A stretch of 21,965 bases of DNA from IMG/VR virus record IMGVR_UViG_3300019850_000039, positions 1 to 21,965 of that record; one strand, written 5' to 3'. Origin of the DNA: a virus. The position numbers and the translations under genes were made by a program. Below the pieces are notes generated by a model. That model worked only from the letters and a program-made list of their open reading frames with translations, searched no databases and was not told where the DNA came from. Positions 1 to 21,965 of this stretch are shown one piece after another (within the stretch, counting starts at the first letter, position 1; every line of letters starts with the position of its first letter).

Positions 1-1145
1 GTATAATTATCCCTCTTTAAAACTATTTTCCTTAATGCAGGTTGTACTTCCCTTGAAGTATTAGTCTTATACCCTTTAGGGTATAATATTTGTTTATATG
101 TAGGGCATGCTTGTTTGCATGTATCAGAACAATATAAATTACATTCCCCCGATCCTTTTCCATTTATACATTTTATTTTACTTACTACAGATTTCAAAGA
201 AGGTATATACCATGAATCACAATACATGCATTTTACTTCAAGGATATTATTGTCTTCTATATTTCTTTTGCAAGCAATACCATAAGGACTTAATTGTTTT
301 ATGTATGTATCATATAAAGGTATATCATTACTTGAATATTTTTTTTCATATAAACCTGCACATTTAGGACAACCATATTTAAGATGTATATGATTAGATG
401 ATCTTTGTTCAAAAATACCATGTACAGGACATATAATTTTTACTTTATCTTTATTGTTTTTATATTGTACTAAAGAATAATTGTACTTATCACCATGAAC
501 TTTCTTTGCATCAATGATAAATTGTTCAGTTGATTTTGTTTTATTATTTGATCTTTTAATAACACCACATTTAAGGCATCCCTGTCCTTGTAAATGATGA
601 CCTGGTCTTTGTTCAAAAATACCATGTACAGTACATATAATTTTTACTTTATCTTTATTGTTTTTATATTGTACTAAAGAATAATTGTACTTATCATTAT
701 GTACTTTTCTGGCATCAATGATAAATTGTTCAGTTGTTTTTCTTTTCTTATTTGATCTTTTAATAACACCACATTTAAGGCATCCCTGTCCTCTTAAATG
801 AGAACTTGGTATTTGTTTAAACATTCCATGTACAGGACATATAATTTTTACTTTAGTATTACAGTTTTTATATTGTACTAAAGAATAATTGTACTTATCA
901 CTATGTACTTTTCTGGCATCAATGATAAATTGTTCAGTTGATTTTTTAATTTTACCTGAGCATTTAAAACATCCATTTCCTTTCAAATGAGAATTTGGTA
1001 TTTGTTTAAACATTCCATGTACAGGACATATGATTTTTATTTTAGTTTTTGTATTCTTATATTCAACAAGTTTATAATTATATTTATCACCATGTATTTT
1101 CTTTGCATCAATGATAAATTGTTCAGTTGTTTTTCTTTTTGTCAT
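1..1145 (-). CDS. HNH homing endonuclease with four zinc-finger repeats (3' end outside window)
   Basis: The frame is open from an ATG at 1145 to the left edge, about 381 codons, so only the C-terminus is missing. It opens with MTKRKTTEQFI and carries four tandem repeats of about 65 residues. Each has a C-x2-H pair in an IICPVHG-type motif and, about 16 residues later, a C-x2-C pair (GCxKC), giving one predicted zinc site per repeat. A Cys-rich middle domain follows (CMYC, then a CSDTCKQAC cluster). The visible part stops at LKRDNYT, just before the HNH zinc knuckle seen in the sister genes, so roughly 60 residues lie outside. It starts 2 bp after the stop of the unknown gene at 1148-1714. 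All four repeats are of the IIDA[KR]KVH type, unlike the other copies. Mobile-endonuclease function is inferred from the intact relatives; the repeats resemble DUF723-type treble-clef domains, recalled rather than searched. Confidence 0.88.
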   Translation of the reverse strand, partial: MTKRKTTEQFIIDAKKIHGDKYNYKLVEYKNTKTKIKIICPVHGMFKQIPNSHLKGNGCFKCSGKIKKSTEQFIIDARKVHSDKYNYSLVQYKNCNTKVKIICPVHGMFKQIPSSHLRGQGCLKCGVIKRSNKKRKTTEQFIIDARKVHNDKYNYSLVQYKNNKDKVKIICTVHGIFEQRPGHHLQGQGCLKCGVIKRSNNKTKSTEQFIIDAKKVHGDKYNYSLVQYKNNKDKVKIICPVHGIFEQRSSNHIHLKYGCPKCAGLYEKKYSSNDIPLYDTYIKQLSPYGIACKRNIEDNNILEVKCMYCDSWYIPSLKSVVSKIKCINGKGSGECNLYCSDTCKQACPTYKQILYPKGYKTNTSREVQPALRKIVLKRDNY

Positions 1146-1750: not shown

Positions 1751-2860
1751 TTATTCATAATCTCTAAATTCAATTCCTACTCCAAAAATAGGTGTTCCAT
1801 TTTCAGATTTTTCTTGATATCTTACTGTAAGCATTTTATTCATATATTGTTCTACATCATTATACTGTTGTTCTCTTACAAGAAATGATCCTTTAGGTCT
1901 TACATCAAAGGTTTCATCATTATCTGTTTTACAAACCCATATAACAAGGTTTTTGATGGTTCCATTATCATCCCATTCTTCTTTTTTATATCCAATAACT
2001 TCAAATTCATTATCGAAGAATTCTTTATATTTTTGCAAACATTTTGGTCTATCATTAAACTGATAATATGATGTTTTATCTCTTACAATAATACCTTCAA
2101 AACCTTCTGAAACAAATTGATCATGATATTTTTTAAATTCTTCATAAGAATCAACATTATAAACAGGAACAAGTTTAATAATACTGTTATTATTAACTAT
2201 TTTTTTCAACATACTATAGCGTTCAGAAAAGGTTTTATCAGGAATAGCAAGATCATAAACCCAGTATTCAATTTCTTCTGTTAATCCTTCTCTGTATTTT
2301 TTAACACGTCTTACAATTTCTTGAAATGTTAAATCGTGTTTATATAATTCACCATCAGGACTTAGATTATTAAAAATATCAAACTCTTTTTTAATATGAT
2401 TCATTACAACATGTTCTTTACATTCACGAGATAACAATCTTTCATCACCTCTATGAAGATAAGAAATTGCTCTTATACCATTATATTTAGGTTGAACAAT
2501 AATATTTGACCAATCATTGCATTTTTCAGGTTTAAATGTTTTTGCCAACATAGGTTTAAGATATAATGGTTCTTCATCAATTTTATCAATATCATCAATC
2601 CAATTATCTTTAATATGATCTTTCCAAAAGTTTTCAGCAATAAACAATGCATTTTCATAAGGTGTTTTTTCATTACTTCTGCCGATATTGGTTCCTTTTT
2701 TAATATACCTGTTATTAACTCGTTCTTTATATCCTATAAAACCCGACTTCCTAATAATAACAGGAATATCATTTTTATCAATTTCAACAGAAATACACCA
2801 TTTTGATGTTTTGTTATTTTTTGCTTTTTTATATAATACTGGAAAACAGGTTTCTTTCAT
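1751..2860 (-). CDS. ATP-dependent DNA ligase
   Basis: The enzyme seals nicks in duplex DNA through a ligase-adenylate intermediate, in phage replication and repair. Residues 1-95 form a WGR-like N-terminal domain (KKGTNIGRSNEKTPYENAL), as found in large-phage and giant-virus ligases. The nucleotidyltransferase core follows: motif I QPKYNGIR with adenylated Lys about 125, DGEL at 169-172, YWVYDLA near 200, motif IV EGFEGIIVR at 252-260 and motif V lysines in LQKYKEF near 277-279. The C-terminal OB domain ends in the typical LTVRYQE...VGIEFRDYE. Motif I has Asn where KYDG is commonest, a tolerated variant. An in-frame ATG lies 12 bp upstream at 2872, but GGAG sits 6 nt before the ATG at 2860, so I chose 2860 (369 aa). 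A strong promoter lies just upstream at 2896-2923. Confidence 0.93.
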   Translation of the reverse strand: MKETCFPVLYKKAKNNKTSKWCISVEIDKNDIPVIIRKSGFIGYKERVNNRYIKKGTNIGRSNEKTPYENALFIAENFWKDHIKDNWIDDIDKIDEEPLYLKPMLAKTFKPEKCNDWSNIIVQPKYNGIRAISYLHRGDERLLSRECKEHVVMNHIKKEFDIFNNLSPDGELYKHDLTFQEIVRRVKKYREGLTEEIEYWVYDLAIPDKTFSERYSMLKKIVNNNSIIKLVPVYNVDSYEEFKKYHDQFVSEGFEGIIVRDKTSYYQFNDRPKCLQKYKEFFDNEFEVIGYKKEEWDDNGTIKNLVIWVCKTDNDETFDVRPKGSFLVREQQYNDVEQYMNKMLTVRYQEKSENGTPIFGVGIEFRDYE

Positions 2861-2881
2861 TTTAATCTCCATAATTAAAAA

Positions 2882-2913
2882 TAGGTTTTGATGTTATTAT
2901 ACATCAAAACCTA
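2882..2913 (-). terminator. Hairpin with T-run upstream of ligase
   Basis: A perfect 13-bp inverted repeat (2882-2894 with 2901-2913, 6-nt loop) is followed on the minus strand by ATTTTT. It looks like an intrinsic terminator for the small-gene operon upstream. The loop overlaps the -10 box of the ligase promoter, so the same DNA may end one transcript and start the next, or the repeat may be an operator. Confidence 0.55.
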
Positions 2914-2923
2914 AAAAAGTCAA
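2896..2923 (-). promoter_or_regulatory. Sigma70-like promoter for DNA ligase
   Basis: On the minus strand, TTGACT (2923-2918) and TATAAT (2901-2896) are separated by 16 bp. This is close to consensus for the host housekeeping sigma factor and well placed for the ligase start at 2860. The -10 box lies in the loop of the inverted repeat at 2882-2913. Confidence 0.65.
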
Positions 2924-2938
2924 TATTTATTTTTATTT

Positions 2939-2964
2939 ATTTGAATAAAAGACTTTATTCAAAT
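2939..2964 (-). repeat. Inverted repeat after the small-gene operon
   Basis: An 11-bp perfect stem (2939-2949 with 2954-2964, 4-nt loop) begins 10 nt past the stop of the gene at 2974-3342. No U-run follows on the minus strand, so it may protect the mRNA 3' end or act jointly with the hairpin at 2882-2913. Confidence 0.45.
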
Positions 2965-2973
2965 ATTCAACAT

Positions 2974-3342
2974 TTATACCCTGATATTAGTGTTCCATAT
3001 ATCATCCTCATTTACTTTACATGTACTCCAGATATTATCCTCTTTTTCTACATCAACAAATTCATCATCAAACTCATCCTTATCAAATTCATCTAATGCA
3101 TCACCAATATCATCAATGATACAGGAAATTCTATCTGATAATCCATTTGTTTCACAACAACATTCAACATTATCTACATCTTTATCCGGTGTTAGTGCAA
3201 CAGGAGTATTAAGTTTTGATAAAATCATAAAAACATCTGCCAATACAGAATTTGTAACATTATTCTCATCTACTGATTCACAAAGAGCATCATAAATTGT
3301 ATCAATATCTTGTTGTGTAAGTGTAAATTCATAATCATTCAT
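2974..3342 (-). CDS. Hypothetical acidic protein, 122 aa
   Basis: I do not recognise this protein. It is strongly acidic (runs such as DEFDKDEFDDEFVDVEKED), has a CCC cluster in its middle (ECCCET), and ends with two similar short segments (EDNIWST and EDDIWNT). No signal peptide or membrane span is visible. The frame is open for 16 more codons upstream, but an AGAGGA Shine-Dalgarno lies 7 nt before the ATG at 3342, and that ATG overlaps the stop of the preceding gene as ATGA (3339-3342). I therefore call the start at MNDYEF, with translational coupling to the upstream gene. It is the last gene of a five-gene operon. Its acidic character would fit a DNA mimic or an inhibitor of a host protein, but nothing in the sequence proves that. 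Confidence 0.72.
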   Translation of the reverse strand: MNDYEFTLTQQDIDTIYDALCESVDENNVTNSVLADVFMILSKLNTPVALTPDKDVDNVECCCETNGLSDRISCIIDDIGDALDEFDKDEFDDEFVDVEKEDNIWSTCKVNEDDIWNTNIRV

Positions 3343-3671
3343 TTTGTTTCCTCTATTTTGTTGTTTTGTTGTTTTTGTATATAAAGACATTTTTTATATA
3401 CATCTTGTTTAATTTTTTTTTCAGTTAATTTAAAATCACTAATTCCATCAATATAACCTTTTACATGAAAATATTCACAAAACCCATTATCATCTACAGT
3501 ATTATTTGTTTTTATTTTATTAAACCCATCTATATAACAATCATAAGCTATATTTGATAAAGATAAACAAACATCATTATTTAAAGGTTTATTTTTATGA
3601 TTAACCACAAAGGCATCTAAAGATAAAACAAATACAATAATCAATGTTAAGATGAAAAATTTCTTTTTCAT
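3339..3671 (-). CDS. Small exported or membrane-anchored protein, 110 aa
   Basis: The family is unknown. It begins MKKKFFILTLIIVFVLSLDA, a basic start followed by about 16 hydrophobic residues. This is a signal peptide (possible cleavage after SLDA) or an N-terminal anchor, placing the rest in the periplasm. The remainder is soluble and contains four Cys (C35, C45, C65 and C95), which would allow disulfides. It overlaps its neighbours by ATGA at both ends (3668-3671 upstream, 3339-3342 downstream), so it is translationally coupled in the operon. The stretch NTVDDNG is encoded by DNA almost identical to a stretch near the end of the gene at 1148-1714. Confidence 0.72.
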   Translation of the reverse strand: MKKKFFILTLIIVFVLSLDAFVVNHKNKPLNNDVCLSLSNIAYDCYIDGFNKIKTNNTVDDNGFCEYFHVKGYIDGISDFKLTEKKIKQDVYKKCLYIQKQQNNKIEETK

Positions 3672-3859
3672 TTATATAATACCTTACCATTTTCTTGAAG
3701 GTTTGTTAAATGAATCAATGAATGATTATAAACCTTAGAAAACACTTGATTTTCTTTTTCAAGATGTTTCATAAAATCTGAAACTTCATTAATATTCATC
3801 TTTGCAATTTTCTTCCATTTTTTCTGAGTTTTTACTTTGTTTCCATATCTACGAGCCAT
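3668..3859 (-). CDS. Small basic hypothetical protein, 63 aa
   Basis: I do not recognise this protein. It starts MARRYGNKVKTQKKWKKIAK, a strongly basic stretch that could contact nucleic acid, followed by a predicted helical segment (VSDFMKHLEKENQVF). An AAAGG ribosome binding site lies about 9 nt before the ATG. It begins 15 nt after the stop of the upstream gene and its stop overlaps the next start as ATGA, so it is a coupled member of the five-gene operon. No function can be assigned. Confidence 0.62.
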   Translation of the reverse strand: MARRYGNKVKTQKKWKKIAKMNINEVSDFMKHLEKENQVFSKVYNHSLIHLTNLQENGKVLYK

Positions 3860-3874
3860 TTCTGTTACCTTTAT

Positions 3875-4048
3875 TTAAAGTTTAATAGGAGTATATACCT
3901 TTGAAATTTCTTTTTGATATATATTAAAAAAATCATCTATTTCTTTTTTTGTATATTTTTTACTAATAATAGTTTTAATATCACTATATATCAAAAAACC
4001 AATATATTTCATTCTATTAGTAATTATAGAATCCTTTTTCTTTTTCAT
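3875..4048 (-). CDS. Small hypothetical protein, about 57 aa (start uncertain)
   Basis: The family is unknown. Translated from the ATG at 4048 it begins MKKKKDSIITNRM and continues with a basic, mainly helical sequence (KKYTKKEIDDFFNIYQKEI). The frame is open further upstream, overlapping the gene at 4017-4226. None of the possible ATGs (4096, 4066, 4048, 4012) has a good Shine-Dalgarno. The ATG at 4012 sits 4 nt after the upstream stop and would give a 45-residue protein by reinitiation. The 4048 start is a compromise. Tight packing between two supported genes is the main argument that it is real. Confidence 0.45.
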   Translation of the reverse strand: MKKKKDSIITNRMKYIGFLIYSDIKTIISKKYTKKEIDDFFNIYQKEISKVYTPIKL

Positions 4049-4226
4049 AATATAATTGTACACCATGTTGATATCTTGTATAATTATCCATATCAATTTT
4101 AATAACTATATAATCTATTTTATTATTATTGTATCTATTTAATTTACATACATGTTCAAATTTTGTTGATGTTATACTATCAACTTTCTTATCAACAATT
4201 ATTGCCTTGTGATTACATCCCAACAT
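4017..4226 (-). CDS. Small hypothetical protein, 69 aa
   Basis: I do not recognise this protein. It is the first gene of the five-gene operon and has the clearest signals: AAGGGG about 7 nt before the ATG, and the TTGACA/TATAGT promoter at 4261-4290. The protein begins MLGCNHKAIIVDKK and contains C-x-H (residues 4-6) and H-x-C (25-27). This spacing could bind a metal, but the motif is too short to name. The second half alternates charged and aromatic residues in what look like beta-strands. Early phage operons of small overlapping genes often carry host-takeover functions, which is only a contextual guess here. Confidence 0.65.
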   Translation of the reverse strand: MLGCNHKAIIVDKKVDSITSTKFEHVCKLNRYNNNKIDYIVIKIDMDNYTRYQHGVQLYYEKEKGFYNY

Positions 4227-4260
4227 AATATACCCCTTTGTTTATTTTTATAATGAAATC

Positions 4261-4290
4261 ACTATAACACTAATAATAATACAATGTCAA
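4261..4290 (-). promoter_or_regulatory. Strong sigma70-like promoter for the small-gene operon
   Basis: On the minus strand a perfect TTGACA (4290-4285) and TATAGT (4266-4261) are separated by 18 bp, 35 nt before the ATG at 4226. The -35 box lies in the downstream arm of the hairpin at 4286-4327. Confidence 0.68.
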
Positions 4291-4327
4291 TATAAAAATA
4301 CACCCATAGATATATTTTTATATTGAC
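4286..4327 (-). terminator. Long hairpin after the exported repeat protein gene
   Basis: A perfect 15-bp inverted repeat (4286-4300 with 4313-4327, 12-nt loop) begins 9 nt past the stop of the gene at 4336-5238. The stem is AT-rich, and its descending arm contains a T5 run and ends in TTGAC, which is the -35 box of the next promoter. It probably limits read-through into the small-gene operon. It is a weak terminator by composition, and an operator role is possible. Confidence 0.5.
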
Positions 4328-4335
4328 TACTGTTT

Positions 4336-5238
4336 TTATTGAATAAATGCAAATGTTAGAAATGGTTTCTTATTATAACTGGCTTTTCCTTGAGAATATC
4401 CGGTGCCACCTGCACCGACTGAACCTGCTCCATCGGCATCGGAATTAACTGTTGCATAATTATATGAAGCACCAATACCCCAACCATTTGAAACAAGTTC
4501 AAGTTTTACACCTTCACTCATCAAAACAACATTATGAGCACCTAATACTTTTGCTTCTTTTACTAAAGCCATAAATAATTCAGGAGAATTAACATCAACA
4601 TCATCTGTATCAATAGTCCCTAAAGCAATTGGCTTATTGCCTTTACTTTTCAATTCTTTTTCAATATCACTACCTTGAATACAAAATAATACTTTATTTA
4701 CATCGTTATCAATAGGTTTTCCAACCATGGTTATATCAATATCAACATCATCTACATTAAAATCACTATCTGTAGTTTCCATTACATTCCATGTTCTTAC
4801 AAGATCAATAATATTGACTGCTGGAATGAAATTAGAACCTTTATTACCTAATGGAGATGCAAATAATGTTGGCATATTTCCATATTTAACATCTGTTGGT
4901 GTAGGCAGATTTCTAATAGGCTTTTCTTCATTAAAAGAATCTTTAAAAGACACTTCTGAATTTCCTGAATCACTAACACTTTGACTTTGCCCTTGACTTT
5001 GCCCTTGAGATGCATTTCCTGAATTACTAATACCTTGTGCCTGCCCTTGAGATGCATTTCCTGAATTACTAATACCTTGCATCTGTCCTTGTGCCTGCCC
5101 TTGCATCTGTGCCTGTCCTTGTGCCTGTCCTTGTGCCTGTCCTTGATTACAATTTCCTGATTCACACGCATATGAACTTGTGCTAATAAAAAATCCAGAA
5201 AAAATCAAACAACTTAATACTACTAACATTTTTTTCAT
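4336..5238 (-). CDS. Exported protein with Gln/Gly-rich repeats, 300 aa
   Basis: A signal peptide (basic MKKM, hydrophobic core, likely cleavage after SSYA at residues 21-24) sends this protein out of the cytoplasm. Residues 31-94 are low-complexity: QGQAQ and QMQG units, then two copies of GISNSGNASQGQ and a diverged SVSDSGNS. The rest is a folded-looking domain of about 200 residues with an acidic beta-rich part and the stretch VLGAHNVVLMSEG. A Gly/Ser-rich segment near the end leads to FLTFAFIQ. AAGAGG lies 7 nt before the ATG. It follows the lipoprotein gene by 10 nt and must share its promoter. I do not know the family. An envelope role, such as superinfection exclusion or surface modification during infection, is inferred from export and pairing only. 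Confidence 0.8.
   Translation of the reverse strand: MKKMLVVLSCLIFSGFFISTSSYACESGNCNQGQAQGQAQGQAQMQGQAQGQMQGISNSGNASQGQAQGISNSGNASQGQSQGQSQSVSDSGNSEVSFKDSFNEEKPIRNLPTPTDVKYGNMPTLFASPLGNKGSNFIPAVNIIDLVRTWNVMETTDSDFNVDDVDIDITMVGKPIDNDVNKVLFCIQGSDIEKELKSKGNKPIALGTIDTDDVDVNSPELFMALVKEAKVLGAHNVVLMSEGVKLELVSNGWGIGASYNYATVNSDADGAGSVGAGGTGYSQGKASYNKKPFLTFAFIQ
4957..5148 (-). repeat. In-frame low-complexity repeats coding for Gln/Gly/Asn/Ser
   Basis: This stretch encodes residues 31-94 of the exported protein. It holds many copies of a 12-nt unit coding for QGQA/QGQM and two longer near-identical copies of a unit coding for GISNSGNASQGQ. Such arrays expand and contract by slippage, so copy number probably differs between related phages. 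Confidence 0.8.
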
Positions 5239-5764: not shown

Positions 5765-5800
5765 AAAACCTGTATCCTTTTATAAAAGGATACAGGTTTT
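5765..5800 (-). terminator. Perfect 36-bp palindrome, intrinsic terminator
   Basis: All 18 base pairs are complementary about a centre at 5782.5. On the minus strand the hairpin ends in GG followed by six T, a good intrinsic terminator 42 nt past the stop of the endonuclease gene at 5843-6976. It isolates that gene from the lipoprotein unit. Confidence 0.85.
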
Positions 5801-5833
5801 ATTTAAATATAACTGTTTTTATTTTATTTTACT

Positions 5834-5841
5834 TTCCTTAC
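5834..5841 (-). other. Vestigial endonuclease 3' tail (GTAAGGAA)
   Basis: The sequence right after this endonuclease's stop matches the stop/Shine-Dalgarno overlap found after the sister genes at 17729-17736 and 21805-21812. Here no start codon follows, only the terminator, so the tail appears to travel with the gene. Confidence 0.5.
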
Positions 5842-5842
5842 T

Positions 5843-6976
5843 CTATTTGCATTCTTTTCTTTTATAATCATTTATACCACATTTATCAGCTTTATGTATA
5901 TTATTATGACAATCTTTACATAAAATAATACAATTATCTGCATCTGCGGATTCAATAGGATTTATTTCTATACCTTCATAATGATGACAATGTAATATTG
6001 TATCAGTTGCACCACACCTTTGACAAGTATAATTATCTCTTTTTAAAACAAGTTTTCTTAAAGGTTCTTGCACTTCTCTTGAAGTATTGGTTCTGTAATC
6101 CTTATACCCTTTAGGATATAAAATTTGTTTATATGTAGGACATGCTTGTTTGCATACATTGGAACAATATAAATTAGATTCTCCTGATTGTTTTCCATTT
6201 ATACATCGTATTTTACTATATACAGAACTTAATGTAGGTATATACCATCTATCACAATACATACATTTAACCTCTAATATATTTTTATCTTCTTTGTTTC
6301 TTCTGCAAGAAACACCATAAGGGCTTAATTGCTTTGTGTATGTATCATATACAGGTATATTATTAGTATAATATTGTTTTTCATATACACCTGCACATTT
6401 AGGACATCCTTGTTCAAGACTTGTATGATTTCTTGGTATTTGTTCAAATATACCATGTACAGGACAAATTATTTTTATTTTAGTATTGTTATTTTCATAT
6501 TGTACTAAAGAATAATTATATTTATCACCATGTATTTCTTGTGCTTTTTCTATAAATTCTTGTGTTGAATTTTTAACATTATCCACACATTTAGGACAAC
6601 CACAACCTTTTAAATGAATTTTAGGTATTTGTTCAAACATCCCATGTATAGAACATATAATTTTTACTTTAGCATAACGATTTTTATATTGAACTAATTT
6701 ATAGTTATATGTATCACCATGTTTGCAATAAGCATCTTCTATAAATTGTTCAGTTGTTTTTTTTAATTTATTGTAAATATATATTTCTGCACATTTAGGA
6801 CAACCATGTCCTTGTAAATGTGAATTTGCTTCTTGTTCAAATGTACCATGTATAGGACATATAATCTTTACTTTAGTTTTATTGTTTTTATAATCAACAA
6901 GTTTATAGTTATATGTATCATAATGTTTGCAATAAGCATCTTCTATAAACTCTTCTGTAGTTTTTCTTTTTGCCAT
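5843..6976 (-). CDS. HNH homing endonuclease with three zinc-finger repeats
   Basis: The 377-residue protein has three parts. Residues 4-195 hold three repeats with zinc ligands C40/H43/C59/C62, C108/H111/C127/C130 and C171/H174/C191/C194. Residues 205-300 are a Cys-rich middle domain (CMYC and CSNVCKQAC). Residues 305-377 are an HNH nuclease: knuckle C318-x2-C321, catalytic H in HCHH (329-332), N348, and C353-x2-CH with H361. Free-standing phage enzymes of this kind cleave a relative lacking the gene and are copied in by repair; the repeats probably read DNA sequence. There is no clear ribosome binding site, and the start at 6976 lies 7 nt from a 38-bp palindrome, so translation may be weak or controlled. 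It sits between the gp32-like and lipoprotein genes as a self-contained cassette with its own terminator. Confidence 0.92.
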   Translation of the reverse strand: MAKRKTTEEFIEDAYCKHYDTYNYKLVDYKNNKTKVKIICPIHGTFEQEANSHLQGHGCPKCAEIYIYNKLKKTTEQFIEDAYCKHGDTYNYKLVQYKNRYAKVKIICSIHGMFEQIPKIHLKGCGCPKCVDNVKNSTQEFIEKAQEIHGDKYNYSLVQYENNNTKIKIICPVHGIFEQIPRNHTSLEQGCPKCAGVYEKQYYTNNIPVYDTYTKQLSPYGVSCRRNKEDKNILEVKCMYCDRWYIPTLSSVYSKIRCINGKQSGESNLYCSNVCKQACPTYKQILYPKGYKDYRTNTSREVQEPLRKLVLKRDNYTCQRCGATDTILHCHHYEGIEINPIESADADNCIILCKDCHNNIHKADKCGINDYKRKECK

Positions 6977-16198: not shown

Positions 16199-17719
16199 TT
16201 ATACAATTACACTTCCTTTTTCTTCACATTCCATAGGCGGACAAGGATCTGGCTCTGGTGGTATATCTGAATAATCAAGCACCGGTGGTAATGGTGGTAC
16301 AGGTGGCGGTGGAATAGGATCTGGCTCTGGTGGTTTTATTATAATTGGTGGTAATGGTGGAATCGGTGGTGCTGGTGCAACAGAAGAAACAGCAGCTACT
16401 GCACTACCTGGCCCTGCTTCACTTGGTTCTGCTGTAACAGCTGTATCAGCATCTATCGCCCATTTAGCACATCCATTAGCAATACCACCCCATGTAAGAA
16501 CATCAGCAATATTAGTTATTGCTGCAAAATCATTAAAAGTACCAGCTTTAAAAGTAATAGTTGGAGCCTCAAGAATTATTTCTGTATCTGATTGTAAATG
16601 TATAGTATCAATACTTTCTATTTTTCTTTTTCCAACACTAAAATCTTCCCAGTCAAAACCAACTATATATGTTTTATTTGATATTGTAAATGAATTTTCA
16701 TTACCAATAATCATTTCATTATCACTTTCACCAACAAATCTATCTTTACTTCCACTAACCCAATCAACACTATTATCACCTACATATAATTTTCTTTTAT
16801 TATCAGTATATATTACCTCATTATCATATATATGATATATCATATCAACTAATACATCTTTCCTATCATTGATATGTATTTTAGAATATCTATTTAAATA
16901 TATCTCATCCCATTGATCTAACATAACTAATGAAGTTCTATTAGTATCAATCTTCCTATGATAATCATTCATAACATGTTCGAATTTCATATCATCACAA
17001 ATATCCCATCGCTTTTCAGCATTTCTAATGGTCATCTGACCAATTTCACCAATCTCGATGTATGAATTTGAAGGATGATAAATATGATAACGACGATTAG
17101 CTTCCGTATCATCTATTTCAGTATATATTCCAGAATGACTATACATAACTGTATTAAATGGATATTGTGCCTGATACATTGGTGGGTATTCATCCCAAGT
17201 ACCAGCAAAAGCAATCATAACACCTATATCTTGTTTAGGAAGTTTTACTTCAAGTAATGTAGTTTCTCCAAGTTTATCTCGTTTCATTAAACGGTGAGTA
17301 TCTGGTTCTTCAATCCAATCTGCTCTCGGAAATTCAGCCATTGGATCATTAAAACCTTCTGCAGGATTTGCAGGTTCAATTGGATTGCCAGGAATAGTAG
17401 CAAAATAACGTGGTTGCATCCAATTTCCATTCTCAAAAAATACCCAGACATAAGAGCCGTGTAACGGTACTGTCCAAATTCCGTTTCCAGAAACAGATCC
17501 TTGATACAATCCATAAGCAGGTTCAGCCCATGGCAATTCTTTAGTTGGAATTCCACGTTTATCTGTTTTATCCTTTAATTCATCATGAACACCCCAAACT
17601 CTAACACGACATCTGCATAATCGTTCTGGATCAAATCTGCATTCCACAACACCTCGATAAATACCATAAAATTTATCTGTTTCTGTTTCAAAATCGTATA
17701 TACTATTTTTTATTGGCAT
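16199..17719 (-). CDS. 5: Baseplate spike protein gp5-like, no lysozyme domain, proline-rich tail
   Basis: This protein should form the central trimeric spike that pierces the outer membrane. Residues 15-110 form the OB-fold (YRGVVECRFDPERLCRCRVRV, then GSYVWVFFENGNWMQPRYFA), as in T4 gp5 and VgrG. After a linker, residues 145-420 are beta-rich with short repeating strands (KIHINDRKDVLVDM, KRKLYVGDN, NEMIIGNEN), fitting a beta-helix. The lysozyme domain of T4 gp5 is absent. Residues 450-506 are unusual: runs of PPIPP and PPPP with EPDP units, ending CPPMECEEKGSVIV. AAGGA, carried by the endonuclease upstream, lies 10 nt before the ATG. The gp27-like hub should be its direct partner, but two endonuclease genes separate them. 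Confidence 0.87.
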   Translation of the reverse strand: MPIKNSIYDFETETDKFYGIYRGVVECRFDPERLCRCRVRVWGVHDELKDKTDKRGIPTKELPWAEPAYGLYQGSVSGNGIWTVPLHGSYVWVFFENGNWMQPRYFATIPGNPIEPANPAEGFNDPMAEFPRADWIEEPDTHRLMKRDKLGETTLLEVKLPKQDIGVMIAFAGTWDEYPPMYQAQYPFNTVMYSHSGIYTEIDDTEANRRYHIYHPSNSYIEIGEIGQMTIRNAEKRWDICDDMKFEHVMNDYHRKIDTNRTSLVMLDQWDEIYLNRYSKIHINDRKDVLVDMIYHIYDNEVIYTDNKRKLYVGDNSVDWVSGSKDRFVGESDNEMIIGNENSFTISNKTYIVGFDWEDFSVGKRKIESIDTIHLQSDTEIILEAPTITFKAGTFNDFAAITNIADVLTWGGIANGCAKWAIDADTAVTAEPSEAGPGSAVAAVSSVAPAPPIPPLPPIIIKPPEPDPIPPPPVPPLPPVLDYSDIPPEPDPCPPMECEEKGSVIV

Positions 17720-17728
17720 TTTTTATAT

Positions 17729-17736
17729 TTCCTTAC
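17729..17736 (-). promoter_or_regulatory. Ribosome binding site of the spike gene, supplied by the endonuclease gene
   Basis: GTAAGGAA overlaps the stop codon (TAA, 17733-17735) of the endonuclease gene at 17733-18869 and is the only Shine-Dalgarno before the spike ATG at 17719. The same arrangement recurs at 21805-21812, indicating termination-reinitiation through a tail that belongs to the mobile gene. Confidence 0.7.
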
Positions 17737-18869
17737 TTTTCTTTTTGACATTCTTTTCTTTGATATTGTTTAATGCCACATTTATCAGCTTTATGTATTT
17801 CATTATGACAAGCTTTACATAAAGTTATACAATTATCTGCATCTGCGGATTCAATAGGATTAACTTCTATACCTTCATAATGATGACAATGTAATATTGT
17901 ATCAGTTGTACTACATCTTTGACAGGTATAATTATCCCTCTTTAAAACAAGTTTCCTTAATGCAGGTTGTACTTCTCTTGATGTATTGGTCTTATACCCT
18001 TTAGGATATAAAACTTGTCTATATGTAGGGCATGCTTGCTTACATTCAATAGAACAATAAAGATTACATTCTCCTGATCCTTTACCGTTTATACATTTTA
18101 TTTTACTTTTTACAGAACTTAATGTAGGTATATACCATGAATCACAATATGTACATTTAACTTCTAATACATTTGAATCTTCTTTATTTCTTTTACAAGT
18201 AATTCCATATGGTTCTAATTGCTTTGTGTATTTATCATATACAGGTATATTGTTGCTTGTATATTTTTCTTCATATTTACCTGCACATTTAGGACATCCT
18301 TGTCTAAGACTTGTATGATTTCTTGGTATTTGTTCAAATATACCATGTACAGGACATATAATTTGTACTTTGATGTTATTATTTTTATATTGTACTAAAG
18401 AATAATCATATTTATCACCATGTATTTCTTGTGCCTTTTCTATAAATTCTTGTGTAGAGTTTTTAATATTACCAGCACATTTATAACAACCTCTTTTTAA
18501 ATGGACATGATTTCTTGGTATTTGTTCAAATATACCATGTACAGGACATATAATCTTTATTTTATCTCTATTATTTTTATATTGTACTAAAGAATAATCA
18601 TATTTATTACCATGTATTTTTTTAGCATCTTCTATAAACTGTTGAGTTGTTTTTCTTAATTTATTTGATATTGATATATCTGAACATTTATGACAACCAG
18701 ATCCTTGTAAATGAACTCTTGGTTTTTGTTCAAAGACACCATGTACAGGGCATATAATTTTTATTTTATCACATGATCTTTTATACTCAACAAGTTTATA
18801 ATTATATTTATCACCATGAATACAATAGGCATCTTCTATAAACTGTTGAGTTGTCTTTCTTTTTGCCAT
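17733..18869 (-). CDS. HNH homing endonuclease with three zinc-finger repeats
   Basis: The 378-residue protein has three repeats in residues 4-195, each with C-x2-H and C-x2-C ligands; the second and third end in IPRNH-type segments instead of the usual HLxG. A Cys-rich middle domain (CTYC, CSIECKQAC) and a complete HNH domain follow (RDNYTCQRC, HCHHYEG, ADNC, CKACHNEIHK). It is the second of two endonuclease genes placed head to tail between the hub and spike genes, starting 3 bp after the stop of the gene at 18873-20426. The first repeat is the YC-x-HGDKYNYKL type, the second resembles AKKIHGNKYDYSL, and the third AQEIHGDKYDYSL. Its last 50 codons are about 90% identical in DNA to the partial gene at the right edge. 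Homing function is inferred from the domain plan and position. Confidence 0.92.
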   Translation of the reverse strand: MAKRKTTQQFIEDAYCIHGDKYNYKLVEYKRSCDKIKIICPVHGVFEQKPRVHLQGSGCHKCSDISISNKLRKTTQQFIEDAKKIHGNKYDYSLVQYKNNRDKIKIICPVHGIFEQIPRNHVHLKRGCYKCAGNIKNSTQEFIEKAQEIHGDKYDYSLVQYKNNNIKVQIICPVHGIFEQIPRNHTSLRQGCPKCAGKYEEKYTSNNIPVYDKYTKQLEPYGITCKRNKEDSNVLEVKCTYCDSWYIPTLSSVKSKIKCINGKGSGECNLYCSIECKQACPTYRQVLYPKGYKTNTSREVQPALRKLVLKRDNYTCQRCSTTDTILHCHHYEGIEVNPIESADADNCITLCKACHNEIHKADKCGIKQYQRKECQKEK

Positions 18870-18872
18870 TTT

Positions 18873-20426
18873 TTATATTTCATTACTTTCCTTGATTCCT
18901 TCTTTGCATTCTTTTCTTTGATATTGTTTAATGCCACATTTATCAGCTTTATGTATTTCATTATGACAGGTTTTGCATAGAGTAATACAATTGTCTGCGT
19001 CAGCAGATTCTATAGGATTTATTTCTATACCTTCATAATGATGGCAATGTAATTCAACATTAATTGCACTGCACTTTTGACATGTATAATTATCCCTTTT
19101 TAAAACAAGTTTCCTTAATGCAGGTTGCACTTCTCTTGATGTATTGGTCTTACCTTTATTATACCCTTTAGGATATAAAACTTGTCTATATGTTGGACAT
19201 GCTTGTTTACATTCATTGGAACAATATAAATTAGATTCTCCTGATTGTTTGCCATTTATACATTGTATTTTGTGTGTTACTGATTTCAATGTAGGAATAT
19301 ACCATGAATCACAATACATACATTTGACTTCTAATATATTATTGTCTTCTTTGTTTCTTCTACAAACAATTCCGTAAGGGCTTAATTGCTTTATATATGT
19401 ATCATATAAAGGTATATTATTATTTGCATATATAATTCCTTCATATTTATGCCCACATTTAAGACAACCTTTTCCTTGTAAATGATTATTTGGTATTTGT
19501 TCAAATATACCATGTTTAGAACATATAATTTTAATATTGATATTTAAATTTTCATATTGTACTAAAGAATAATCATATCTATCACCATGTACTTCTTGTG
19601 CTTTTTCTATAAATTGTTGTGTTGTTTTATATTTACCATTGCATTTTTTACATCCCTGTCCTTTTAAATGATGATTTGGTGTTTTTTCAAACATACCATG
19701 TACAGGACATATAATTTGTACTTTAGTATTACTATTTTTATATTGTACTAAAGAATAATTATACTTATCACCATGTACTTTTCTTGCATCAATAATAAAT
19801 TGTTCTATAGTTTTTCTATTATTTATAATCACACATTTAGGGCAACCAGATCCTTGTAAATGATTACTTGATGTTTGTTTAAAAATACCATGTACAGGAC
19901 ATATAATTTTTATTTTCTTATTTGATCCTTTATAATTAACTAATTTATAGTTATACTTATCACCATGCTTACAATAAGCATCTTCAATAAACTGTTGTGT
20001 GGTTTTTTTTAATTTATTTGATATTGATATATTTCTACATTTAGGGCAATTGTTTCCATTTAAATGATTATTTGGTTTTTGTTCAAACACCCCATGTATA
20101 GGACATATAATTTTAATTTTAGTATTATTGTTTTTATAATCAACAAGTTTATAATTATATTTATCACCATGAACTTTTTTAGCATCAATAATAAATTGTT
20201 CAGTTGTTTTTCTTTTCTTATTTGATAATTGTATAATGCTACATTTAGGGCAATTTTGTCCTCTTAAATGATTGCTTGGTATTTGTTCAAATATACCATG
20301 TATAGAACATATAATTTTTATTTTTATTGAATTATTTTTATACTGTACAAATTTATAATTATATTTATCACCATGAACTTTTTTAGCATCAATAATAAAT
20401 TGTTCAGTTGTTTTTCTTTTTGCCAT
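18873..20426 (-). CDS. HNH homing endonuclease with five zinc-finger repeats
   Basis: At 517 aa this is the longest copy, with five repeats. Predicted zinc ligands are C40/H43/C59/C62, C108/H111/C127/C130, C176/H179/C195/C198, C240/H243/C259/C262 and C302/H305/C321/C324. The Cys-rich middle domain (about 335-420) and HNH domain follow: C449-x2-C452, HCHH at 460-463, N479, C484-x2-CH and H492. The C-terminus extends to GIKESNEI, longer than in the sister at 5843-6976. An AAAGG ribosome binding site precedes the ATG, and promoter elements lie at 20439-20494, so this gene may start its own transcript after the hub gene. Repeats 1, 2 and 4 are IIDA[KR]KVH type, 3 is YCKHGD type and 5 is AQEVHGD type, a mosaic of the types seen in the other copies. 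Confidence 0.93.
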   Translation of the reverse strand: MAKRKTTEQFIIDAKKVHGDKYNYKFVQYKNNSIKIKIICSIHGIFEQIPSNHLRGQNCPKCSIIQLSNKKRKTTEQFIIDAKKVHGDKYNYKLVDYKNNNTKIKIICPIHGVFEQKPNNHLNGNNCPKCRNISISNKLKKTTQQFIEDAYCKHGDKYNYKLVNYKGSNKKIKIICPVHGIFKQTSSNHLQGSGCPKCVIINNRKTIEQFIIDARKVHGDKYNYSLVQYKNSNTKVQIICPVHGMFEKTPNHHLKGQGCKKCNGKYKTTQQFIEKAQEVHGDRYDYSLVQYENLNINIKIICSKHGIFEQIPNNHLQGKGCLKCGHKYEGIIYANNNIPLYDTYIKQLSPYGIVCRRNKEDNNILEVKCMYCDSWYIPTLKSVTHKIQCINGKQSGESNLYCSNECKQACPTYRQVLYPKGYNKGKTNTSREVQPALRKLVLKRDNYTCQKCSAINVELHCHHYEGIEINPIESADADNCITLCKTCHNEIHKADKCGIKQYQRKECKEGIKESNEI

Positions 20427-20438
20427 TTTTATACCTTT

Positions 20439-20494
20439 AATTATATATTATAATACAATTATATATTATAACATATTTCAATATAAAATGTAAA
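20439..20494 (-). promoter_or_regulatory. Promoter region with duplicated AT-rich box before the five-repeat endonuclease
   Basis: On the minus strand TTTACA (20494-20489) and TATAAT (20470-20465) are 18 bp apart. The 15-bp box around the -10 (20457-20471) is repeated exactly at 20439-20453, giving a second TATAAT one and a half helical turns downstream. The gap between the hub and endonuclease genes holds nothing else. Confidence 0.5.
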
Positions 20495-21796
20495 TTAAAT
20501 AAATGCCATATCTGGCAATCCACCTGATGTACCACCCATCGGCACCGATGCATCGTTCACTTTCGCTGCAGGAACAAGTCCTGGATCTGATTCATGATAG
20601 CCGTTTTTAATTAGTACAAGTTTTTGTTGATATACTGGAGTAGATGCGGGTGACCATTGATGCGTAACACTTTTTACTAAAAATAATCCTACCATATTAG
20701 CGTCAATTTGTATTTCATCAGAAGCACTTGGCCACTTGATCTCAATCATGCCACCGGCAAAACGATCTGCATGTCCTTCAAGGGTACATTGTACTGTTTG
20801 TTGAAGACAATATCTTTTAATCCAATCAGCATAATAAATATTTTTTAATATTTCTTCATTGTTTTCATTTATATTGATATGAGGTTTATAGTCTCCAATA
20901 TCTGTATCATCTGTTATGGCAAATAATGATTTTGAACCAAGACACATAAATTTAGTTAATGCTTCCATATAATTTACATCTACTTTGATATATTTTTTTC
21001 TTTCTATATCCCAACATAACATATATGCACCTATCAATTTTCTCATATTTTGTTTATCAGGTCTATTGATAGAATAACCTTTTATATTATTGATATTATA
21101 TTCATTATGAGAATAAACCATATATAATGAATCCAAAGGTGGCATACTTGGGCCTTGTTCAAGTAATGTTTCAAGAGATATTACATTAAATAAATCTGTA
21201 CCAGAATCTTTTGTATTTGAATAATATATATATCCGGGAACACCTGTTGCTGCACTTGTACATCTATTTGATAACCATTTAACACATTGAATAGGTGTTT
21301 TAAGACCATTATAAAAATATTTTATAGTTTCTGGGCAATTTTCAAATTCACCTAATTCTATTTCAGCCATAACCTCAAGAATATAATGTGAAATATCCAT
21401 ATATGTATAACATGCATCTGAAAATGACCTTGTGTGCTTCCAAAAATGTAATTTTTTATAATTACTATCTATACCAAATATTTCTATAACATGTCTATTT
21501 TTTTGATTTGAATTATTTGCATTAACTTTTAAGATATTAAATGTAAATTCTTTTGAAGAATATCCTGAAAGACCTATTAACGATTCATATGAAATTGTGA
21601 CTTTTTCATTACCTATAATAGGAAGCATTTCATGTAATCCTTTAGTATCTTTTGTAACAATATGAATTGTTTTACAATAAGAATATATGTCCTCGAACAG
21701 CCGAACAAATGAGATGTCATTATTATCCAAAACACATGTATCTTTACCACCTGATATAACTACAGAAAATCTATGTTGAACTTCAGCATTTGCCAT
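20495..21796 (-). CDS. 27: Baseplate hub protein, gp27-like
   Basis: The hub trimer joins the tail tube to the gp5-type spike. The 433-residue protein starts with a beta-rich domain (HRFSVVISGGKDTCVLDNNDISFVRL is broken by a loop after VVISGG) and ends with the characteristic hub strands GMIEIKWPS, VGLFLVKSVTHQWSP and YQQKLVLIKNGY, as in gp27/gpD-type hubs. Position supports this: apart from two mobile endonuclease genes, the next gene is the spike and then gp25-like. T4 gp27 is 391 aa. The Gly/Pro-rich end (VPMGGTSGGLPDMAFI) may be flexible. The ribosome binding site AAGGAAA comes from the tail of the endonuclease gene at 21809-21965, the stop of which lies 12 nt upstream. Confidence 0.8.
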   Translation of the reverse strand: MANAEVQHRFSVVISGGKDTCVLDNNDISFVRLFEDIYSYCKTIHIVTKDTKGLHEMLPIIGNEKVTISYESLIGLSGYSSKEFTFNILKVNANNSNQKNRHVIEIFGIDSNYKKLHFWKHTRSFSDACYTYMDISHYILEVMAEIELGEFENCPETIKYFYNGLKTPIQCVKWLSNRCTSAATGVPGYIYYSNTKDSGTDLFNVISLETLLEQGPSMPPLDSLYMVYSHNEYNINNIKGYSINRPDKQNMRKLIGAYMLCWDIERKKYIKVDVNYMEALTKFMCLGSKSLFAITDDTDIGDYKPHININENNEEILKNIYYADWIKRYCLQQTVQCTLEGHADRFAGGMIEIKWPSASDEIQIDANMVGLFLVKSVTHQWSPASTPVYQQKLVLIKNGYHESDPGLVPAAKVNDASVPMGGTSGGLPDMAFI

Positions 21797-21804
21797 TTAA
21801 TATT

Positions 21805-21812
21805 TTCCTTAC
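21805..21812 (-). promoter_or_regulatory. Ribosome binding site of the hub gene, supplied by the endonuclease gene
   Basis: GTAAGGAA overlaps the endonuclease stop codon (21809-21811) and is the only Shine-Dalgarno before the hub ATG at 21796. Sequence and position match 17729-17736. Confidence 0.7.
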
Positions 21813-21965
21813 TTTTCTTTTTGACATTCTTTCCTTTGATACTGTTTAATACCGCATTTGTCAGCTTTATGTATATCATTATGACAATCTTTACATAGAA
21901 TAATACAATTGTCTGCATCTGCGGATTCAATAGGATTAACTTCTATACCTTCATAATGATGACAA
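21809..21965 (-). CDS. HNH homing endonuclease, C-terminal 52 codons only (5' end outside window)
   Basis: The visible part reads CHHYEG, PIESADADNC, LCKDCHNDIHKADKCG and ends KECQKEK, the second half of the HNH domain with the catalytic His, Asn and CxxCH...H of the other copies. The N-terminus and repeat array lie beyond the right edge, so the number of repeats is unknown. DNA identity to the 3' end of the gene at 17733-18869 is about 90% by eye, pointing to recent duplication or gene conversion. It lies directly upstream of the hub gene, so the hub is flanked by endonuclease genes on both sides. Confidence 0.9.
   Translation of the reverse strand, partial: CHHYEGIEVNPIESADADNCIILCKDCHNDIHKADKCGIKQYQRKECQKEK

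Follow-up and report, generated by a model that had tools for sequence, protein, structure and literature searches.

Shine-Dalgarno sequences at the 3' ends of HNH endonuclease genes inserted before baseplate genes of an uncultured T4-like phage, and their possible use by the downstream genes

Results

The window, i.e., the whole stretch of DNA analyzed here, is a 21,965-bp contig from an uncultured phage (26% GC) and has T4-like baseplate genes on its minus strand. Along the direction in which these are transcribed, the end of an endonuclease gene is followed by a gp27-like hub gene, endonuclease genes of 517 aa and 378 aa, a gp5-like spike gene, gp25 and gp6, beyond which lie a free endonuclease copy (6976-5843) and, at the other contig end, a partial copy (1145-1). 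This fifth, partial copy (minus strand, approximately 1-1145) was overlooked in the original prediction, which had listed the other four, and its position means that the contig both begins and ends within a copy of the endonuclease repeat. The features of the region are as follows.

21809..21965, minus strand: last 51 codons of an HNH endonuclease copy that is cut off by the contig end and immediately precedes the hub gene
21797..21813, minus strand: AGTAAGGAAAATATTAA, comprising the endonuclease end with its stop TAA (21809-21811), the Shine-Dalgarno (SD) sequence AAGGA and the hub leader
20495..21796, minus strand: gp27-like baseplate hub gene, 433 aa (PHROG 350 tail protein, E=6e-24)
20427..20494, minus strand: AT-rich 68-nt leader from the hub stop to the first endonuclease, ending TTAAAGGTATAAAA
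18873..20426, minus strand: endonuclease copy 2, 517 aa, with treble-clef/DUF723 repeats and a C-terminal HNH domain
18870..18889, minus strand: AAAGTAATGAAATATAAAAA, leader of endonuclease copy 3; including the ATG, 22/23 nt equal the spike leader
17733..18869, minus strand: endonuclease copy 3, 378 aa (PHROG 681/559/119/144 endonuclease; HNH region similar to PDB 5h0m)
17720..17737, minus strand: AGTAAGGAAATATAAAAA, comprising the stop TAA (17733-17735), the SD and the spike leader
16199..17719, minus strand: gp5-like spike gene, 506 aa, with Gp5 OB and trimerisation domains
5843..6976, minus strand: endonuclease copy 4, 377 aa, with no gene immediately downstream
5832..5842, minus strand: AGTAAGGAAAG tail, kept after the TAG stop of copy 4
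1..1145, minus strand: N-terminal part of endonuclease copy 5, which is truncated by the start of the contig

The hub protein is 70-82% identical to its counterparts in three endonuclease-free contigs, L006, L007 and L010. In place of a typical gp5 C-terminus, the spike protein has a long proline-rich tail at its end (PPLPPIIIKPPEPDP..., window 16199-16420), and positions 4336-5238 encode a secreted-looking protein with a signal-peptide-like N-terminus followed by a long GQAQ/SNSGNASQ repeat region. The 68-nt gap at 20427-20494 holds an imperfect repeat, TTATAATATATAATT, which is possibly a promoter.

The endonuclease copies in the window consist of treble-clef/DUF723-type repeats and a C-terminal HNH domain, with the partial copies showing only one part each. 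The HNH assignment is based on matches to PHROG HNH families (E down to 6.5e-12, residues 297-373) and on the match of the HNH endonuclease 5h0m to copy 3 (E=2.5e-4); the match of copy 4 to Pfam HNH (E=6.2e-4) is just under the Pfam cut-off. The syntenic intergenic sites at the hub, spike and gp53-like genes (the name "gp53-like" being positional and provisional) are occupied in the window or in G001 and empty in L006, L007 and L010. A group I intron or an intein was rejected, as Rfam gave no match in the window, L012 or L067 and the neighboring genes are intact at the hub and spike sites. As part of the overall explanation given below, the endonucleases are thus fairly probably free-standing HNH genes, putatively homing, that have spread by copying within a T4-like phage.

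Scans of contigs found other close copies only in IMGVR 3300019850_000034, _000046 and _000079, while a scan of bacterial genomes found no relatives of the endonuclease and a megablast of the region against phages gave no match. A DNA-pattern match in L158 was discarded as a chance match, the surrounding stretch translating with stops. The alignment scan yielded mostly relatives of the N-terminal repeats with other C-termini, which served as a control set only. A 204-kb phage contig, IMGVR 3300037424_000485 (L054-L065), was found to encode approximately 18 paralogous HNH endonucleases that have the same C-terminal domain but differ in their N-termini; some of them apparently lie inside genes.

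Three exact matches to AGTAAGGAAA were found in the window, all on the minus strand (5833-5842, 17728-17737 and 21804-21813) and all at HNH endonuclease 3' ends; since 100 dinucleotide shuffles gave a mean of 0.09 matches and a maximum of 2, pure chance was rejected as the origin of this pattern. At the spike junction, the endonuclease at 17733-18869 ends GAAAAGTAAGGAAATATAAAAA-ATGCC and the spike starts at 17719, and at the hub junction the endonuclease at 21809-end terminates GAAAAGTAAGGAAAATATTAA-ATGGC and the hub starts at 21796. The original prediction that the motif overlaps the endonuclease stop and is the only SD of the spike and hub genes was borne out at these coordinates. The predicted anti-SD pairing is -6.1 kcal/mol at both junctions, compared to a mean of -4.6 kcal/mol for other window genes and -1.4 kcal/mol for random 19-mers. 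At the tandem junction, the gene at 18873-20426 ends GGAAAGTAATGAAATATAAAAA-ATGGC and the next endonuclease starts at 18869. Over 90.8 kb, comprising the window and three contigs with the same gene family, GTAAGGAAA is limited to those three sites, and TAAGGAAA occurs within 30 nt upstream of 2 of the 83 non-endonuclease ORFs, which we read as hub and spike; the gp53-like gene is absent from this count because its start is masked by a longer ORF call. Copy 4 reads AAATAG-AGTAAGGAAAG, so that, as predicted, the motif is kept where no gene follows, but it lies just past the TAG stop and does not overlap it. Downstream of this tail is a hairpin with a T-run (approximately 5768-5800) and no gene start. 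Taken over the copies, the SD overlaps the endonuclease stop in two and follows it in three.

Viral contigs scanned with the spike yielded L006 (70% identity), L010 (93%, over 109 aa at the contig end) and L007 (62%), as well as two further, more distant spike relatives, and in all of these contigs the spike directly follows the hub. A scan of viral contigs with the hub protein gave no confirmed relative, and the hub was recovered via the spike loci. The hub-spike gap of L006 and L010 is 24 nt long, versus 68 nt between the hub stop and endonuclease copy 2 in the window, and ends AAGAGGAAATACAG-ATG, while the spike leader in the window is GTAAGGAAATATAAAAA-ATG (TAAGGAAATATAAAAA-ATG). Because L006 and L010, which are endonuclease-free, already have AAGAGGAAATACAG-ATG, the spike SD may be native and the spike junction is ambiguous.

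At the hub, the start codon in L006 and L010 and the stop codon of the preceding gp53-like gene overlap (TTTATAATGGC), and the hub SD lies inside the gp53-like gene, which ends TTAGRGATTTATAATGGC; nothing resembling GTAAGGAAAATATTAA is found at the hub start, and TAAGGAAA is absent from the empty hub sites in L006, L007 and L010. For the gp53-like gene, too, the native SD lies within the end of the preceding gene or close beside it (GTAAGAGG in L006 and L010, AAAAGG in L007). The native SDs at the hub and gp53-like genes are thus unlike the endonuclease tail. The original prediction had expected endonuclease-free relatives to lack the leader found in the window; this held for the hub and gp53-like genes and was nearly contradicted at the spike.

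At the occupied sites, the hub start reads GTAAGGAAAATATTAA-ATG and the gp53-like gene is preceded by TAAGGAAAG. In IMGVR 3300019850_000034 (L067), one copy lies before the gp53-like gene and a second lies exactly at the former start of the hub, where the contig ends; the 5' side of this occupied site reads ATTAAGGATTTATAA-A-ATGCCAAAAAG. At the right end of the window, 46 nt overlap the end of IMGVR 3300019850_000034 exactly, and although this overlap falls within a repeat, the two are probably neighboring contigs of one genome. Taken together, the window and L067 suggest that the native SD of the hub now serves the endonuclease and that the hub in turn relies on the SD with which the endonuclease ends. 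At the occupied gp53 site, the SD (TAAGGAAAGCAAGGAAG) comes from the endonuclease and the native SD upstream is gone, so that by sequence the sole SD at both the hub and the gp53-like gene derives from an endonuclease end. The strength of these SDs equals that of the native ones, with predicted energies (kcal/mol) of -6.0 (native) and -6.1 (occupied) at the spike, -2.9/-5.6 and -6.1 at the hub, and -5.4 to -6.5 and -5.4 at gp53. Several of the endonucleases have weak leaders of their own (-2.8 to +2.2).

The extent of the mobile unit was analyzed in an alignment of ten endonuclease 3' ends anchored on the last Cys codon. After this codon, 16/17, 16/17 and 17/17 nt (AAATAGARTAAGGAAAG, a stretch that includes TAAGGAAA) are identical among the copies at three unrelated loci (free copy, gp53 and split polymerase), dropping to 7-9/17 in the next block; the spike and hub copies match at 20/20 nt and then at 8/17. 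None of the random 17-mers drawn from the contigs reached 16/17. Coding identity for the same copy pairs is 88-94%, and the untranslated tail is therefore as conserved as the gene, while nothing is conserved upstream of the endonuclease ATG. Since paralogues at unrelated sites share the SD-bearing tail and then diverge abruptly, the putative mobile unit of one tail lineage is shown to begin at the ATG and to end approximately 11 nt past the stop, SD included.

These alignments bear on the possibility that the SDs are all native leaders of the respective target genes, with the endonucleases having inserted just upstream and having carried nothing beyond their stop codons. The similarity between GTAAGGAAATATAAAAA-ATG in the window and AAGAGGAAATACAG-ATG in L006 and L010 fits such a history. 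So do the approximately 18 related endonucleases of the 204-kb contig, which share no common tail and have SDs after their stops only where a gene follows, and a second type of endonuclease at the left ends of IMGVR 3300019850_000034 and _000046, where 141 nt are common, no SD tail is shared and an SD follows in one. However, the hub and gp53 have native leaders that differ from the tail and are located upstream of the insertion, within or adjacent to the preceding gene; copy 4 (5843) retains the tail where no gene follows; and copies at unrelated loci match at 16-17/17 nt. These observations make native leaders an unlikely source of the signal as a whole. The 141 nt at the two left ends are the 3' end of this second endonuclease type, after which the contigs diverge; their length looks like an assembler k-mer.

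The signal is not found throughout the family. TAAGGAAA is present in 5/10 known 3' ends, and the rest have a coding A/G-rich tail (KEGxxE) or none: AAGGAA(A/G)G is translated in w517 and L068b, and L066a, L066b and L069a differ. In the wider family (79 loci, with ORF starts taken mechanically), endonuclease-to-gene junctions averaged -1.3 kcal/mol versus -1.8 kcal/mol for other junctions, i.e., there was no SD enrichment. Given this, the 5/10 ends and the missing tail in the 204-kb contig, a signal common to all family members was rejected, and the predicted ribosome-binding site (RBS) tail belongs to one lineage within a single phage population and not to the family. As they come from one phage population, possibly from one genome, the tail-bearing copies are not independent evolutionary tests.

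The same observations could indicate a tail that moves along with the gene without ever having been selected as an RBS, being a by-product of A/G-rich C-terminal Lys/Glu codons (KEGxKE, KECQKEK) or a leader captured earlier, e.g., that of the spike, which acts as an SD by luck. The nearby AAGGAAG or AAGGAAAG of L068b and w517, which is coding (KEGKEG, GIKES) whereas in others it is untranslated, the missing enrichment in the wider family and the resemblance of the spike leader to the tail are all consistent with such an origin. Three copies, on the other hand, keep AAGGAAAG untranslated after TAG and as conserved as coding sequence, even if recent copying could also explain this; we regard the by-product origin as possible but somewhat doubtful.

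The tandem junctions appear to have a different history. The original prediction that the junctions of the gene at 18873 and of the spike share GAAATATAAAAAATG is correct, but GAAATATAAAAAATG proved to be part of a 22/23-nt near-identical leader that precedes both the second endonuclease (copy 3) and the spike (spike-site sequence AAAGTAAKGAAATATAAAAA). Likewise, on the minus strand of L066 (approximately 2614-5105), tandem endonucleases have leaders that are identical at 35/35 nt before both starts and duplicate the 3' end of the upstream gene (KMLDEK-stop). Duplication of the leader would be a second way for a downstream start to keep its leader, and it is the better explanation of the tandem junctions. 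As a general account, in which insertion duplicates the target leader and the copy lands between the two, it is improbable, given that the hub, gp53 and L068a sites have no clear matching leaders on both sides and that the duplicated leader in L066 has no SD.

Discussion

Our overall explanation, which we hold to be reasonably probable, is that a homing endonuclease at a start codon takes the RBS of its target at the hub and that its tail returns one. Within co-directed operons, endonuclease genes would have landed on or close to the start codons of essential structural genes, as mobile segments that start at the endonuclease ATG and, in one lineage, end approximately 17 nt after the last Cys codon, closed by an A/G-rich tail with TAAGGAAA. 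At the hub site, the endonuclease would occupy the old translation start and inherit the native SD, while the hub, likewise the gp53-like gene and possibly the spike, would be translated from the SD in the endonuclease tail. The native leader of the displaced gene would be left upstream, where it can decay, as seems to have happened in G001 before the gp53-like gene. Under such an RBS swap, loss of the endonuclease by deletion would deprive an essential gene of its only RBS.

The original prediction of a mobile unit with a built-in reinitiation signal is thus retained for the SD tail on paralogues at unrelated loci, but the tail closes only 5/10 ends, and downstream translation probably occurs through ordinary SD-directed or coupled initiation. 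Candidate origins of the tail are a selected module, a by-product of Lys/Glu codons and a leader that was picked up at one site and then taken along to further ones. The strongest version, that a dedicated 3' RBS module evolved in one homing-endonuclease lineage, which takes the RBS of the target and returns its own and so makes an essential virion gene translationally dependent on a parasite, seems to us rather unlikely.

Several free-standing HNH endonuclease genes per genome, with measured marker exclusion, are described for lactococcal Skunavirus phages; the enzyme family differs (I-HmuI-like or GVE2-like), and no RBS role turned up in the text that was searched (PMC12724721). The free-standing endonucleases of the T4 seg/mob type are intergenic, mostly promoter-less and co-directed with their neighbors, often with poor initiation signals of their own, and some contain promoters for an essential downstream gene (segG/gene 32), which has been argued to favor retention (PMC2988022). 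Some seg/mob genes carry a control element for the gene behind, as the units in the window would, and several copies of the window family also have poor SDs of their own. By comparison, the element here would be translational and lies at the very 3' end, with downstream dependence predicted from the sequence, and the enzymes have treble-clef repeats and HNH domains instead of the GIY-YIG domain of Seg and occur in many copies in one genome region. The likeliest reading is therefore that the finding represents a translation-level analogue of the promoters embedded in T4 seg/mob genes. The open-access literature searched yielded no paper in which the tail of an endonuclease gene serves as the RBS of the gene that follows. 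If true, an RBS swap at insertion, with a ribosome-binding site in place of the embedded promoters of the T4 case, would explain hard-to-lose endonucleases and could be an answer to how promoter-less selfish genes land before essential phage genes without killing the phage. The alignments also show that a mobile endonuclease gene can have its 3' boundary beyond its own stop codon.

In phage Aeh1, mobE is reportedly inserted in nrdA, and seg43(25) is said to be located at the split gene 43 of Aeromonas phages. Insertion in these cases separates off a downstream coding segment, which must then have a start of its own, whereas the insertions in the window are at gene boundaries and not inside genes. 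A split polymerase locus is also found in L012 and L068. The ORF behind the L068a copy was considered as the C-terminal half of the polymerase and rejected, as it is an unrelated small ORF and motif C lies further on. In L012 (2151-6816), an HNH endonuclease and several small ORFs interrupt DNA polymerase B between its motifs B and C, an arrangement that resembles the split gene 43 of Aeromonas phages.
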